The translations under genes and the position numbers were made by a program. Of a stretch of 64,000 bases of DNA, positions 50,823-57,285 are shown one piece after another. The notes under the pieces were generated by a model, which was not told where the DNA came from, did not search any database, and saw only the letters and a program-made list of their open reading frames with translations. The stretch spans positions 1-64,000 of the forward strand of contig CANMBE010000001.1 in the NCBI GenBank assembly GCA_947495975.1, written 5' to 3'. The first letter of the stretch is position 1. Each line of letters starts with the position of its first letter. The stretch comes from Ignavibacteria bacterium (GTDB lineage: Bacteria; Bacteroidota; Ignavibacteria; Kapaibacteriales; Kapaibacteriaceae).

Positions 50823-52367
50823 CTACTTTGTGATGATCGTGATCTCTACTCGTCTGTTTTGTTGTCTGCCTTCGTCTGTATCATTTGAAGCAACAGGCTT
50901 ACGCTCGCCATAGCCAATAGCTATGAGCCGCTTTACGTTAACTCCACCACGCTTCACAATGTATTGCACAACAGCATCAACACGTTCTTCTGATAGCACC
51001 TGATTGTATTTGTCGCTGGCAACAGCATCCGTGTGACCACCAATTTCAATGGTCATTGTAGGGCTCCTAACGAGGACCTCGGCAATACGATTCAACTCCG
51101 GAAACGACTCCGGACGAAGTGTTGTCTTTTTGTAGTCAAAGGAGATGTTGTTCAGCTCAGCAACGCTTCCAGCTTCGATAGGAACCAGGTAGAGATCTCG
51201 CTTGATCTCTGTGTAGTCTGTGAGCTTCGAAAGATCAAGGTTGTCATTCACCGAAAGGAAGTTCTCTGCAGATGCACGGAAGCCATACGTGCCCCCTGCT
51301 GGCAGAACAATCTTGTAGCTCCCTGTTGTTGGAGTAGAACGTGCGCGGCCCGCTTCAGCACCTGCCGGCAACACCTCATAAATGATGTCCGCTTCTACCG
51401 GCTGGTTGGTGGCTTTGTTCAATACGCGGCCTGTAACAACTCCAACTGGACGTGGGCGTACTTTCTCTGGCAGACGAATGCGGAAAATGTCACCCGCACC
51501 AAAAGTATTACTGTACGAAACGTAGTAGGCATATTCGCCAGCCGCAGGAATCGTATAGTACAGATCCCAACCGGACGTGTTGATTGTAGGACCCAGATTT
51601 TCAGGGGCCGACCAATTGGTCCACGTTGAATCTAGCCTACGAGTAACGAACACATCAAATGCGCCATAGCCTCCCTGACCGTCTGAGGCGAAGTACAGCG
51701 ACGAGTTATCAGATGCAATGAATGGGGTGGCCTCGTGGCCAAGAGAGTTAACAACCACTCCCATATTCACAGGCTCGGAGAAAGAGCTGTCTTCCTGTGC
51801 AAAAGAAACATACAGGTCCTTGCCGCCTCGCGAATCTTTTCGCTCTATGGCAAGAATTAATGTGCGGTTGTCATTTGCCAATGAATATTCACCAAAGCGA
51901 GTGTCATTGTAGAAGTTTTTAATCACAACAGCTTTTGGAACAGACCATCCTTCAGCCGTACGGCGCGCAATAGCAATGCTGCGCTGACGATTTGTAGGTG
52001 CGCTATATCCATCGCCAACAATAATCGTGTTTCCATCGGGAGTAATGGAGCACAAATAGTTGTTATCACGATTATTCAGTGGAACTCCAACATTCTTGGC
52101 TATGCCCCACGTACCATCGCTTTGAAACTCACTAAGCCAGATATCCTGACGACCACCGCCAATGTTGTCTGGTGATTGACCTCGGCAGAAATACAATGAG
52201 AGTCCATCAGGTGCAATCACCGGAAGGATATCATCATATTGGCCGTTTACGTTTGGACCTACATTCATTGGGAGATATGTAGAATCTATCGTTTGTGCGT
52301 GCACAGTCACAGCAAGACTTGCGCACACAACTACCCAACAGGTCAGGTGTATCCAGACTTTTAGCAA
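50823..52367 (-). CDS. OmpA family protein with PD40/WD40-like repeats
   Basis: PD40 'DDILPVIAPDGLSLYFCRG'; OmpA domain 'IEIGGHTDAVASDKYNQVLSEERVDAVVQYIVKRGVNVKRLIAIGYGERKPVASNDTDEGRQQNRRVEI'-type C-term. Confidence 0.93.
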   Translation of the reverse strand: MLKVWIHLTCWVVVCASLAVTVHAQTIDSTYLPMNVGPNVNGQYDDILPVIAPDGLSLYFCRGQSPDNIGGGRQDIWLSEFQSDGTWGIAKNVGVPLNNRDNNYLCSITPDGNTIIVGDGYSAPTNRQRSIAIARRTAEGWSVPKAVVIKNFYNDTRFGEYSLANDNRTLILAIERKDSRGGKDLYVSFAQEDSSFSEPVNMGVVVNSLGHEATPFIASDNSSLYFASDGQGGYGAFDVFVTRRLDSTWTNWSAPENLGPTINTSGWDLYYTIPAAGEYAYYVSYSNTFGAGDIFRIRLPEKVRPRPVGVVTGRVLNKATNQPVEADIIYEVLPAGAEAGRARSTPTTGSYKIVLPAGGTYGFRASAENFLSVNDNLDLSKLTDYTEIKRDLYLVPIEAGSVAELNNISFDYKKTTLRPESFPELNRIAEVLVRSPTMTIEIGGHTDAVASDKYNQVLSEERVDAVVQYIVKRGGVNVKRLIAIGYGERKPVASNDTDEGRQQNRRVEITIITK

Positions 52368-52368
52368 A

Positions 52369-52968
52369 TCACTTGCCCTTTACAACCGAGAATGTAATCT
52401 TCTCAAGTGGATTGTCGCCAGCGTCGCGAGGATTGTTTACAACAACATCTGCAACTTCCATCCCACTCACAACTTCTCCGAATGCTGTGTATTGATTATC
52501 TAGCCATGGCGAGTCTGCAACACAAAGGAAAAACTGTCCGCTAAAGCTGTTCGGATCTTGTGTTCGTGCAGCCGAGAGTGTACCGCGCACATGTTTTGTG
52601 GGAGAGAACTCAGCAACAACCTTTTCTTGATGTCCGCCACTTCCCCATGAAGTACGCGGCTGGTCCTTACTATTTGGATCGCCCCCTTGAATCATGAAGT
52701 TTGGGATTACGCGGTGGAACGCCGATCCATCATACCAGCCCTCTGCAACGCGAGCGTCAAAAAATGCGCAATGTTTTGGTGCAATCTCGGGCCACAACCT
52801 AATCTCGATTTTCCCGAGTTCTTTGTTTCCCTGCGTAACGGTCATAATGTATGTCATAGCTTTTTTGTCCTTCGGTGTTGTTTGTGCCGACACATCGGCT
52901 GTTGCGAATACGCCCATCAGTAGGGCTGCGGCTGTAATGCTTGAGAGAAAATGCATGTCGATCTCCAT
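52369..52968 (-). CDS. secreted peptidylprolyl isomerase (cyclophilin type)
   Basis: 'GSAFHRVIPNFMIQGGDP', 'GTLSAARTQDPNSFSGQFFLCVADSPWLDNQYTAFGEV'; signal peptide. Confidence 0.95.
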   Translation of the reverse strand: MEIDMHFLSSITAAALLMGVFATADVSAQTTPKDKKAMTYIMTVTQGNKELGKIEIRLWPEIAPKHCAFFDARVAEGWYDGSAFHRVIPNFMIQGGDPNSKDQPRTSWGSGGHQEKVVAEFSPTKHVRGTLSAARTQDPNSFSGQFFLCVADSPWLDNQYTAFGEVVSGMEVADVVVNNPRDAGDNPLEKITFSVVKGK

Positions 52969-52980
52969 TTTGCGTTAATA

Positions 52981-54450
52981 CTACTTGCGTTTTATGCTAT
53001 TGATTACAACTGGAATTCGCGGAATGCCATCGGTTTCTCCTAACGGCCCTGGCTCTATTTCCACTCGTCCAATCTTGTCAAGAATATCCATTCCTTCTAT
53101 GACGTAGCCAAAAATGGTGTATTGGTAGGGAAGTGCAATTGCTTTGTTCAAACAAATGAAGAATTGGCTGGTTGCTGAGTTCGCAATGGGCTTGCGGGCC
53201 ATAGCCACAGCGCCTTTGATGTATCCCCGCCTGGCTGACGGTGTTTCTGGTTGAAGTTCATCTGCAAGAGGCTTTCCAGACGCTGTTTGCCCCCCTGTGC
53301 CCCATTCATTGCGGATTTGCGGGTTCTTGGTCTTTGGATCGCCCACCTGAATCGCATAATCGCGCCACACCCGATGAAACACTATCCCATTGTAGAAGCG
53401 CTTGTTAACGAGACTCAGGAAATTAGACACTGTCATCGGAGCATCTTTTCCATAGAGCTCAATGGTTATGGCTCCCTTAGAGGTATTCATCACCACGGTA
53501 TCCGTTGCTTCTACAAAAGTCTCTTGAGCAGTGTCTCTGGCAACAGTTGCGTCAGTAGAAGCGGTTGGTGGTTTGAGTTGCTCAAACTCTACAGCAGATG
53601 TTTTTTCTTGTTGCGAACAGGCCGTGAGAAGCAAAATGCAGCCAAGACCAATGCGGTAGAAAATGAATACACGTAGCGAATGAGTTCGCAGGTACTTCAA
53701 AAGAAATGTGATGGACCAGTAACCGCTCACAAGTGCCGCTACGGTAGCAACTGCAAGCTGCATGCCTCCATCTGTCCACGAAAGATATCTGACTTCATGT
53801 GCAAACTCCAACACACCTGCGGCTAGGATAGCTGGTATTGAAAGCAAGAATGAAAACCGTGCTGCATGCTCTCTGGTCATGCCCCTGAACAGCGCAGCCA
53901 TTATTGTTGAGCCACTGCGCGAGCTGCCTGGGATAAGTGCCAGGCACTGAGCAAAGCCAACTATCAGTGCGTCTTTCACTGTTACATCAGATGTTGTTCG
54001 CGTGAACGTTGCCTTGCGTTCAGCAAGCCACAGAAGCAATGCCATTGCTATGAGACTTGTACCAATGAGATGCAGGTTTTTTGTGAGTGCGCCTTCGAGT
54101 AAATCCTTCAATGCAAGTCCAACTACCACGATTGGTATTGTTCCAATGATTACAAGCCAACCCAGGCGAGCATCAGGACTTTGTTTTGCAAGAGGGCAGC
54201 GTGTTCTGGTGAAGTTTTCTACAAACCACCGCCGTGTGGTATTCAGAATGTCAACGCGGAAATACGCCAAGACTGCTACCAACGTACCCAACTGAATGGT
54301 TGCCATAAACGAAGTCCATCGCTCTGGATGCGCAGGGTCAATAACGCCAAGAGCTGCCGCAGCCACCGTAAGGTGCGCAGTACTTGAGACCGGGATAAAC
54401 TCCGTGAGCCCTTGTATGAGGCCAAGGATGAGCGCTGCAACTATTGACAT
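52981..54450 (-). CDS. uppP: fusion: undecaprenyl-diphosphatase (UppP/BacA) + cyclophilin-type peptidylprolyl isomerase
   Basis: UppP motifs 'LIQGLTEFIPVSSTAHL' and 'LIPGSSRSGSTIMAALFRG'; single ORF continues through 'YRIGLGCILLLTACSQQ' into 'VVMNTSKGAITIELYGKDAPMTVSNFLSLVNKRFYNGIVFHRV'. Confidence 0.9.
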   Translation of the reverse strand: MSIVAALILGLIQGLTEFIPVSSTAHLTVAAAALGVIDPAHPERWTSFMATIQLGTLVAVLAYFRVDILNTTRRWFVENFTRTRCPLAKQSPDARLGWLVIIGTIPIVVVGLALKDLLEGALTKNLHLIGTSLIAMALLLWLAERKATFTRTTSDVTVKDALIVGFAQCLALIPGSSRSGSTIMAALFRGMTREHAARFSFLLSIPAILAAGVLEFAHEVRYLSWTDGGMQLAVATVAALVSGYWSITFLLKYLRTHSLRVFIFYRIGLGCILLLTACSQQEKTSAVEFEQLKPPTASTDATVARDTAQETFVEATDTVVMNTSKGAITIELYGKDAPMTVSNFLSLVNKRFYNGIVFHRVWRDYAIQVGDPKTKNPQIRNEWGTGGQTASGKPLADELQPETPSARRGYIKGAVAMARKPIANSATSQFFICLNKAIALPYQYTIFGYVIEGMDILDKIGRVEIEPGPLGETDGIPRIPVVINSIKRK

Positions 54451-54468
54451 CTACGCAAAACTACCACA

Positions 54469-57285
54469 TCAATGGGCTTCATACCACGAAACTCCACTCC
54501 CTGTTTCCACAATTATTGGGACAAGGTCAAGAGGCAAGGCACGCTCCATCTCTTCCTTGGCAAGGCATGCAAGTGTATCAACCTCTGAAAGTGGGGCTTC
54601 AAAGACGAGTTCATCGTGCACCTGAAGCATCATGAGGGACTGCAAGCCCTCCTTTTTCATGCGGTTGTGAACTCGAATCATTGCAAGCTTCATCATATCC
54701 GCCGCAGTGCCTTGTATGGGCATGTTGATGGCAGCACGTTCTGCTGCTGTGCGCAAGCCACGATTGCTGGCGTTAATCGTTGGGAAATAACGCCTCCTTC
54801 CCAGCAGGGTAGAAGCATAGCCCCTTTCACGCGTAATAGCAACCGTTTCGTCTATGTAGTTTTTTATGCCAGCATATTTTTCGAAATAATTTTCGATAAT
54901 CTTTTGCGCCTCGTTGCGCGAAATTCCAAGGCCTTGGGCTAAACCGAATGCACCCTGACCATACATGATGCCAAAATTCACGGTCTTCGCTGTTCTTCTT
55001 TGATCATTTGTAACGGCTTCAATTGCAACATCAAAAAGAATAGCCGCGGTTGCGGAATGGATGTCGGCCCCGGAAGCAAATGCTGCAATAAGGTTCGGAT
55101 CCGTAGAGAATGCAGCCATGATGCGCAATTCAATCTGAGAATAGTCAGCAGATAGAATGACGTATCCATCACGTTGTGGTACAAAGGCTTTGCGAATTTG
55201 TTGGCCCAACTCTGTGCGTACCGGGATGTTCTGCAGGTTTGGATCTGTAGAAGAAAGCCTGCCTGTTGCGGCCACTGTTTGATTAAATGTTGTGTGAACA
55301 CGACCCGTGTCCGGATTGATCAAACGCGGTAGAGACTCAACATATGTGCTGCGAAGTTTTTCAACTTGACGGTAATCAAGCACCATCTGAGCAATTGGAA
55401 ACGTTTCTGCTAACTCCGTCAACACGCTAGAATCTGTTGAATACCCTGTCTTGGTTTTCTTTGATGCTGGCAACATCAAATTCTCAAACAACACTTCAGC
55501 AAGCTGCTTTGGCGAACTGATGGTAAAATTCTGTCCAGCTTCTTTCCAAATCTCTGCTTCAAGTCTCACTGCTTCTGCGCGCATAAACTCTCCCAACCCA
55601 CCCAATGCCTTTGTATCTATGAAAATGCCGTTGTATTCCATCGTTACCAACACTGGCACAGCATCAAACTCAATACTTTGGGCAAAGTTCAAGAGTTCTT
55701 CTTGTTCTAGCTGCTTCTTCATAAGGTGAGCGAGCTTCAATGCAAGGTCTGCATCCTCTGCAGCATACTCTGCAACGATCGCTGCATCTACATCTCGCAT
55801 TGACTTTTGTTGTCCACGCTTTTCGCCAATGAGTGACGTTATTGAGATTGGCGCATACTGCAGCCAGCGCTCAGACAATGCATCTAGATTATGAAGTCTG
55901 TCAGGATCTAATACGTAACTCGCCAACATCGAATCAAATGTTACCGGATGCACGTCAATACCATATCTCTTTAGAATGAGCATATCGTATTTGAGATTCT
56001 GACCACACTTACCAAGTGAAGAATCGTGCAGCAATGGCTTCACAACATCTAACACATCCTTAAGCGGCAGGCCGTGGCGCTCATCGTGTTCAGCAAACAG
56101 CGAGGAGGTTTCGCCAATTGCAGGATCATCAACATCGATGTAAAACGAAGTACCTTCTTCCGCACACAGTGCAATGCCTACAATTGCACACCGCATCGCG
56201 TTGAGCCCTGTTGTTTCAAGATCAACGGAGAGAAGAGAAGCCCCTTTCAATGACTCAATCATTTGCGAGAGTCCACCAGGAGTATCAACGAGTGTGTAGC
56301 TGTGCTCTATATCCGCTACAGTTTTTACGTGTGATGTTGCACCTGTAATTTCGTTGGGTACCCCAGTAGCATCCGTTATAGATTCCGAATCTGCACCGCT
56401 TGCTCCGTCTGCACTTCCGTATTTGGCAAACTTTCTTCGGAGGGTATGAAAACCCAATTCTTCGCAGAACGCATCAAGTGCTACAAAGTCCATCGGACGA
56501 CGAACGAGCGCAACTCGTTTTGCATCCACTGGAACATCAGTGTGGATGGTAACGAGGGTCTTTGAGAGGAAGGCCATCTCTCTACAATCTTCAAGTTTCT
56601 TTCGTACAGAAAGTCGCTCAACAGATTCAAGATTTTCATAGAGATTTTCTAACGAACCAAACTGCTCAATAAGTGGAATTGCTGTTTTTTCTCCTACGCC
56701 TTTTACACCTGGAACATTATCTGAAGCATCTCCAATGAGTGCAAGTACATCTATGACATGCTCTGGGCCTACACCAAATTTTTCTTTTACCTTAACAGCA
56801 TCGAGCACATCATACTCTCCAACATCGCGTCCGGGACGAAGGATTTTTACCTTGTCCGTAACGAGTTGGAAGTAATCCTTGTCGGATGTAACACAGAGGA
56901 TCTCATGACCATCATTACCCTCTCGCTTGCAGATGGTGCCTACAATGTCATCAGCTTCGAACCCTGGCATCTCTACCATCTCAAGCCCCATAAGCCCAAT
57001 CATCTGCTTTATTCGATGTAGCTGAGGAACAAGATCTTCAGGGAAGGCATCGCGGTGGGCCTTGTATTGATCGTAGAGAATGTGCCGAAAGGTAGGTTCT
57101 GGTGTATCAAAGACTACTGCAATTGCATCAGGTTGATGTCTATCGAGCAGCGAAGTGAGAATATTTGCAAATGCAAATACGGCAAATGTTGGCTCGCCGG
57201 CCGTGGACTGCATGCCGGTTCGAAGCAGTGCATGGTACGCGCGGAAAACCAGCGACATACCGTCTATGAGGATGAGTGGACGCAT
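54469..57285 (-). CDS. polA: DNA polymerase I
   Basis: 5'-3' exo N-term, 'LSVDLETTGLNAM' 3'-5' exo, 'DYSQIELRIMAAFS', 'RRTAKTVNFGIMYGQGAFGLA', 'MLQVHDELVFEAP'. Confidence 0.98.
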   Translation of the reverse strand: MRPLILIDGMSLVFRAYHALLRTGMQSTAGEPTFAVFAFANILTSLLDRHQPDAIAVVFDTPEPTFRHILYDQYKAHRDAFPEDLVPQLHRIKQMIGLMGLEMVEMPGFEADDIVGTICKREGNDGHEILCVTSDKDYFQLVTDKVKILRPGRDVGEYDVLDAVKVKEKFGVGPEHVIDVLALIGDASDNVPGVKGVGEKTAIPLIEQFGSLENLYENLESVERLSVRKKLEDCREMAFLSKTLVTIHTDVPVDAKRVALVRRPMDFVALDAFCEELGFHTLRRKFAKYGSADGASGADSESITDATGVPNEITGATSHVKTVADIEHSYTLVDTPGGLSQMIESLKGASLLSVDLETTGLNAMRCAIVGIALCAEEGTSFYIDVDDPAIGETSSLFAEHDERHGLPLKDVLDVVKPLLHDSSLGKCGQNLKYDMLILKRYGIDVHPVTFDSMLASYVLDPDRLHNLDALSERWLQYAPISITSLIGEKRGQQKSMRDVDAAIVAEYAAEDADLALKLAHLMKKQLEQEELLNFAQSIEFDAVPVLVTMEYNGIFIDTKALGGLGEFMRAEAVRLEAEIWKEAGQNFTISSPKQLAEVLFENLMLPASKKTKTGYSTDSSVLTELAETFPIAQMVLDYRQVEKLRSTYVESLPRLINPDTGRVHTTFNQTVAATGRLSSTDPNLQNIPVRTELGQQIRKAFVPQRDGYVILSADYSQIELRIMAAFSTDPNLIAAFASGADIHSATAAILFDVAIEAVTNDQRRTAKTVNFGIMYGQGAFGLAQGLGISRNEAQKIIENYFEKYAGIKNYIDETVAITRERGYASTLLGRRRYFPTINASNRGLRTAAERAAINMPIQGTAADMMKLAMIRVHNRMKKEGLQSLMMLQVHDELVFEAPLSEVDTLACLAKEEMERALPLDLVPIIVETGSGVSWYEAH

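Follow-up and report, generated by a model that had tools for sequence, protein, structure and literature searches.

We found that a single gene in the investigated window (64 000 nt of contig CANMBE010000001.1 from the Ignavibacteria bacterium assembly GCA_947495975.1) encodes an undecaprenyl-diphosphatase (UppP/BacA) fused to a cyclophilin-type peptidyl-prolyl isomerase, and that this fusion is real and inherited. Comparison of the sequences suggests that the product is probably a two-enzyme precursor, in which the last UppP helix would serve as a signal peptide and from which Lgt and LspA would release a lipid-anchored cyclophilin. The original prediction had described one uninterrupted reading frame of 489 aa that joins a complete-looking UppP/BacA to a complete cyclophilin, and our analysis bears this out: the frame is free of stops from its ATG to its TAA (Table 1), the Pfam profile of BacA is matched over its whole length (positions 1–257 of 257; 273 bits, cut-off 33.4), and the Pro_isomerase profile is matched from position 2 to 156 of 159 with 138.6 bits. 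The NCBIfam model for UppP (TIGR00753) was passed as well, with 226.3 bits versus a cut-off of 217.5. The junction quoted in the prediction, KYLRTHSLRVFIFYRIGLGCILLLTAC followed directly by SQQEKTS, was found to be exact.

Table 1. Positions of the fused gene, its parts and the neighboring cyclophilin gene in the window
Feature	Position	Strand	Remarks
UppP (BacA) + cyclophilin fused ORF	52981..54450	-	489 aa, ATG start, TAA stop; same fusion in 20 further genomes of the family
Undecaprenyl-diphosphatase (UppP/BacA) domain, residues 6-272	53635..54435	-	PF02673; motifs QGLTEFIPVSSTAHL and PGSSRSGST intact
Last UppP transmembrane helix with positive flank, residues 255-277 (RTHSLRVFIFYRIGLGCILLLTA)	53620..53688	-	Candidate n- and h-region of a type II signal peptide
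Lipobox L-T-A-C, residues 275-278	53617..53628	-	Cys278 codon at 53617-53619
Variable hydrophilic linker, residues 279-318	53497..53616	-	No invariant column in residues 279-317 (21 fused proteins)
Cyclophilin-type peptidyl-prolyl isomerase domain, residues 319-485	52996..53496	-	PF00160
Second cyclophilin with its own N-terminal signal-like sequence	52369..52968	-	Separate gene, in frame with the fusion, 12 bases past its TAA

A search of the relatives for the same fusion, as proposed with the original prediction, identified it in 20 other genomes of the family, so that 21 of 24 family genomes, the source genome included, carry it in stop-free, full-length form. All 12 members of the genus are fused (the source genome and G001–G011), as are 9 of the 12 family members outside the genus (G012, G014, G015 and G018–G023). 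Two separate genes in all relatives had been set beforehand as the outcome that would speak against the fusion; we observed separate uppP and cyclophilin genes in only three of the 24 (G013, G016 and G017). Elsewhere in the order no stop-free fusion was detected among the 126 genomes searched, and every relative outside the family that we parsed has uppP and cyclophilin as separate genes. Apparent extra fusions in G032, G027, G049, G062, G111 and G113 were discarded after ORF parsing, which resolved them into in-frame stops or separate frames. In a phylum sample of 398 genomes, all matches from outside the family that cover both domains contain an in-frame stop in between.

Judged by their residues, both halves look catalytically intact. 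The UppP half carries its two motifs in the forms (E/Q)xxxE...SSTxH and PGxSRS, and Gln13, Glu17, Ser22, Ser23, His26 and Arg178 are invariant in all 21 fused proteins. For the cyclophilin half we matched the CypA positions by eye via the motif, and observed the equivalents of Arg55 and Gln63 in all 21 proteins and that of Phe113 in 20 of them; the positions of Trp121 and His126 are occupied by Leu and mostly Tyr, respectively. A single-sequence AlphaFold2 model of the fused protein was discarded (pLDDT 37).

Next, we consider the residues around the junction. Within residues 272–317, Cys278 is the one column that does not vary among the 21 fused proteins, which belong to a subtree with a length of 5.82 substitutions per site. 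Its codon is TGC in 15 of the genes and TGT in 6, and from this variation we can conclude that the residue and not the DNA is what is kept. The position before the Cys (−1) is Ala, Ser or Gly and the −2 position Thr, Ala or Val in every fused protein, while −3 is Leu in 11, Phe in 6, Val in 2 and Ala in 2. Compared with the strict lipobox consensus [LV][ASTVI][GAS]C (PMC8048626), the L-T-A-C of the source genome fits, and in 8 of the 21 proteins the −3 residue (Phe or Ala) lies outside [LV]. A PROSITE-like lipobox expression finds exactly one match per protein, always at the junction and in all 21 cases, which is more than chance. The distance from the last Lys or Arg to the Cys is 12 residues in 20 proteins and 14 in G018; in the N-terminal lipoprotein-like sequences of the source genome it ranges from 11 to 22. 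In none of 42 distinct unfused UppPs did we observe a Cys within the last 30 residues. For the background we counted lipobox-like patterns behind a hydrophobic stretch and away from the N-terminus on 464 kb of the source genome with 355 predicted genes, which gave four genes including the fused ORF; the other three look like two N-terminal lipoproteins with over-extended starts and one soluble phosphorylase. A disulfide role for Cys278 is unlikely, as Cys169 is absent from several fused proteins and the other common Cys (433) lies in the cyclophilin motif QFFICL.

The geometry of the last helix can be compared with E. coli BacA. A beta-lactamase fused to the last residue of that protein, Phe273, is periplasmic, and the full-length hybrid is an active phosphatase that complements a thermosensitive mutant, while with the junction at Arg251, ahead of the last helix, the reporter behaves as cytoplasmic and there is no complementation (PMC4641660); both BacA termini were also assigned to the periplasm in a crystal-structure paper (PMC5852022). 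By analogy with this topology, and considering its positive flank, the last helix of the fused protein would run from the cytoplasm to the periplasm. Our alignment to 5oon and 6cb2 stops at query residue 269; prolonged without gaps, it places Cys278 on Phe273 (by arithmetic from the chain lengths). From a conserved Tyr-Arg, which lies within the hydrophobic stretch of the last helix, to the Cys we counted 11 residues in the fused proteins, and in the shortest unfused UppPs the chain stops 11–12 residues past this pair, so that a cut before Cys278 would leave an essentially complete last UppP helix. With a mean hydropathy of 1.88 the helix is at the lower end of the N-terminal lipoprotein-like sequences of the source genome (1.24–3.36). 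The genome encodes both LspA and Lgt.

The unfused arrangement in the order is usually a uppP gene and, behind it, a lipoprotein cyclophilin that has a start and a type II signal peptide of its own. In the three unfused family genomes the stop of uppP and the start codon of the gene behind it share the four bases ATGA, and the product of this second gene carries at its N-terminus a regular type II signal peptide that runs up to a Cys (MKARTLVFALFLCTTIVAC in G017 and MRSRFGIVLVLATIAVMCGC in G013, for instance). The same pair occurs in many relatives of the order, often with the second cyclophilin next, and since this layout is found both in the family and in many order relatives, the ancestor was likely a three-gene operon of uppP, lipoprotein cyclophilin and cyclophilin. 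At two loci, L024 (G036) and L028 (G032), uppP and the lipoprotein cyclophilin are located in the same frame and split by an in-frame stop, TGA in the former and TAG in the latter, which is a near-fusion state. When aligned from the Cys onward, the mature lipoproteins of G013, G016 and G017 have a linker layout and a short (A/P)P motif in common with the fused proteins, and this suggests that Cys278 is probably the ancestral lipid-anchor Cys. Going by this comparison, the stop and the tail of UppP as well as the n-region and most of the h-region of the lipoprotein would have been lost in the fusion; the last UppP helix would have been joined to the lipobox and would have taken over the signal peptide role.

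We propose the following processing. Sec would insert the UppP part into the inner membrane, and because the last helix would enter from the cytoplasmic side and leave the C-terminal part in the periplasm, L-T-A-C would be presented at the periplasmic face in the way a lipoprotein signal peptide presents it. Lgt would attach diacylglycerol to Cys278, and LspA would cut between Ala277 and Cys278. This would yield equal amounts of a 277-residue UppP, which retains the last helix as a part of the enzyme, and of a lipid-anchored periplasmic cyclophilin starting at Cys278. The fused precursor has no N-terminal lipoprotein signal sequence, and a polytopic enzyme precedes its lipobox at residue 278, so it is not an ordinary prolipoprotein, yet it may function like one. 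We infer the topology in the source species, the lipidation, the cleavage and the activity of the cut UppP; packed into UppP, the helix might be out of reach for Lgt or LspA. The Tyr-Arg inside the hydrophobic stretch, the comparatively low hydropathy and the −3 residues outside [LV] likewise count against this processing. The double use of the last UppP helix as a type II signal peptide, which the original prediction had put forward, is supported by the invariant Cys and the −1/−2 pattern in 21 of 21 proteins, and further by the E. coli BacA topology, the alignment with the Cys of the mature lipoproteins and the presence of Lgt and LspA in the genome.

The strongest alternative is a chain that is not cut, in which the cyclophilin would stay tethered to the periplasmic C-terminus of UppP and the Cys would at most be lipidated in place or be an evolutionary leftover. 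UppP evidently tolerates such a domain, as E. coli BacA is active with beta-lactamase fused to its last residue (PMC4641660), and the apparently intact catalytic residues of both halves would suit a tether as well. However, a leftover Cys is not expected to be invariant in all 21 proteins when the remaining columns from 272 to 317 all vary, and the small −1 residue in each of them is explained by lipobox recognition and not by a mere tether; we therefore regard the uncut chain as unlikely. Considerably less probable is the use of internal translation starts, by which a full-length UppP–cyclophilin would be made together with a separate lipoprotein begun shortly ahead of the last helix (MRVFILYRIALGSILLFTSC in G004 is an example). 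Many relatives have an ATG 19 codons before the Cys, the source genome offers TTG and GTG at 27 and 37 codons before it, and the absence of a Shine–Dalgarno match is uninformative, as most real uppP starts here have none either. Yet no start position is conserved: codon 259 of the source gene is CTA, in G002 a GTG at −37 is the only candidate, and G008 lacks a usable start within 45 codons. Moreover, the ATG position is a Met in the unfused UppPs of the family too and hence belongs to UppP, and such a lipoprotein would still need the same lipobox cut, so that internal starts could coexist with the two-enzyme precursor, which does not require them. There is next to no chance that the fusion was produced by an error in sequencing or assembly or came about recently by accident, a reading for which we found no support although the window stems from a draft assembly of 24 contigs: the same stop-free junction is common to 20 other family genomes, whose fused proteins show 54–76% identity to that of the window and keep the catalytic residues in both halves.

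To the number of origins we can give two answers. In a tree of both domains the unfused G016 and G017 group with the fused G018 and G014 (99/92), and this placement needs two changes, either fusion on two occasions or a single fusion and a subsequent split. Forcing all fused proteins together was weakly disfavored for both domains (AU p 0.045), while the same constraint, applied to each domain singly, gave AU p 0.18 with UppP and 0.35 with the cyclophilin, and we do not choose between the two histories. The combined claim of a polyprotein cut by LspA with a structural UppP helix as its retained lipoprotein signal peptide, in an arrangement that arose twice in the family, is a tentative one and we hold it to be doubtful as a whole.

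Regarding the genomic surroundings, a second cyclophilin similar to the one listed in Table 1 follows in nearly all relatives. Directly downstream of this cyclophilin we observed an ORF of 514 aa (50823-52367, minus strand), apparently with an OmpA-like domain at its end. A DNA polymerase I-like gene (938 aa, 54469-57285) lies upstream of the fusion, 18 bases away and likewise on the minus strand, and both may be on a shared transcript. The fused BacA is the sole BacA of the source genome (G000, 2.2 Mb), which contains three cyclophilins and six PAP2-family matches over the cut-off (for example C12:30478-30837 and C1:183027-183362); the latter are possible further undecaprenyl-diphosphate phosphatases. 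With six such matches and three cyclophilins, neither activity need rest on the fused gene alone.

UppP, cyclophilins, lipoprotein cyclophilins and the Lgt/LspA pathway are already known. The UppP half resembles E. coli BacA (PDB 5oon, 6cb2) in the whole family profile, in both active-site motifs and in a last helix with the conserved Tyr-Arg, but E. coli BacA ends at Phe273 whereas the fused chain continues via the lipobox into the cyclophilin. SlrA of Streptococcus pneumoniae is a lipoprotein cyclophilin, and this protein and the uppP-adjacent ones of the order likewise have their cyclophilin domain after a Cys for the lipid anchor and a linker that is flexible; their signal peptide, in contrast, is normally N-terminal and discarded, while in the fused protein the final helix of a different enzyme would serve as one. 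In Bradyrhizobium, the cytochrome b/c1 precursor (fbcH) is a bacterial precursor that is split at an internal signal sequence by ordinary signal peptidase. It shares with the fused gene the order of a polytopic membrane protein and a periplasmic protein in one gene with an internal signal sequence in between; the cut of the fused protein, however, would be made by Lgt and LspA with a lipid attached, and the signal would be an integral helix of the upstream enzyme. Our literature search, which most subscription journals lay outside, found no paper on a UppP–cyclophilin fusion or an LspA-cut polyprotein and gave nothing relevant on the fbcH precedent.

LspA is usually regarded as removing N-terminal signal peptides, which are then discarded. 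If the proposed processing is true, Lgt and LspA would be able to process a polytopic protein at its last helix, and a signal peptide could persist as part of a folded enzyme, in this case one of a cell-wall pathway. Annotation pipelines that look for lipoproteins at N-termini only would miss such proteins. The fusion also couples an enzyme of cell-wall lipid recycling with a folding enzyme of the envelope at a fixed ratio, in a lineage that already had both genes as operon neighbors.
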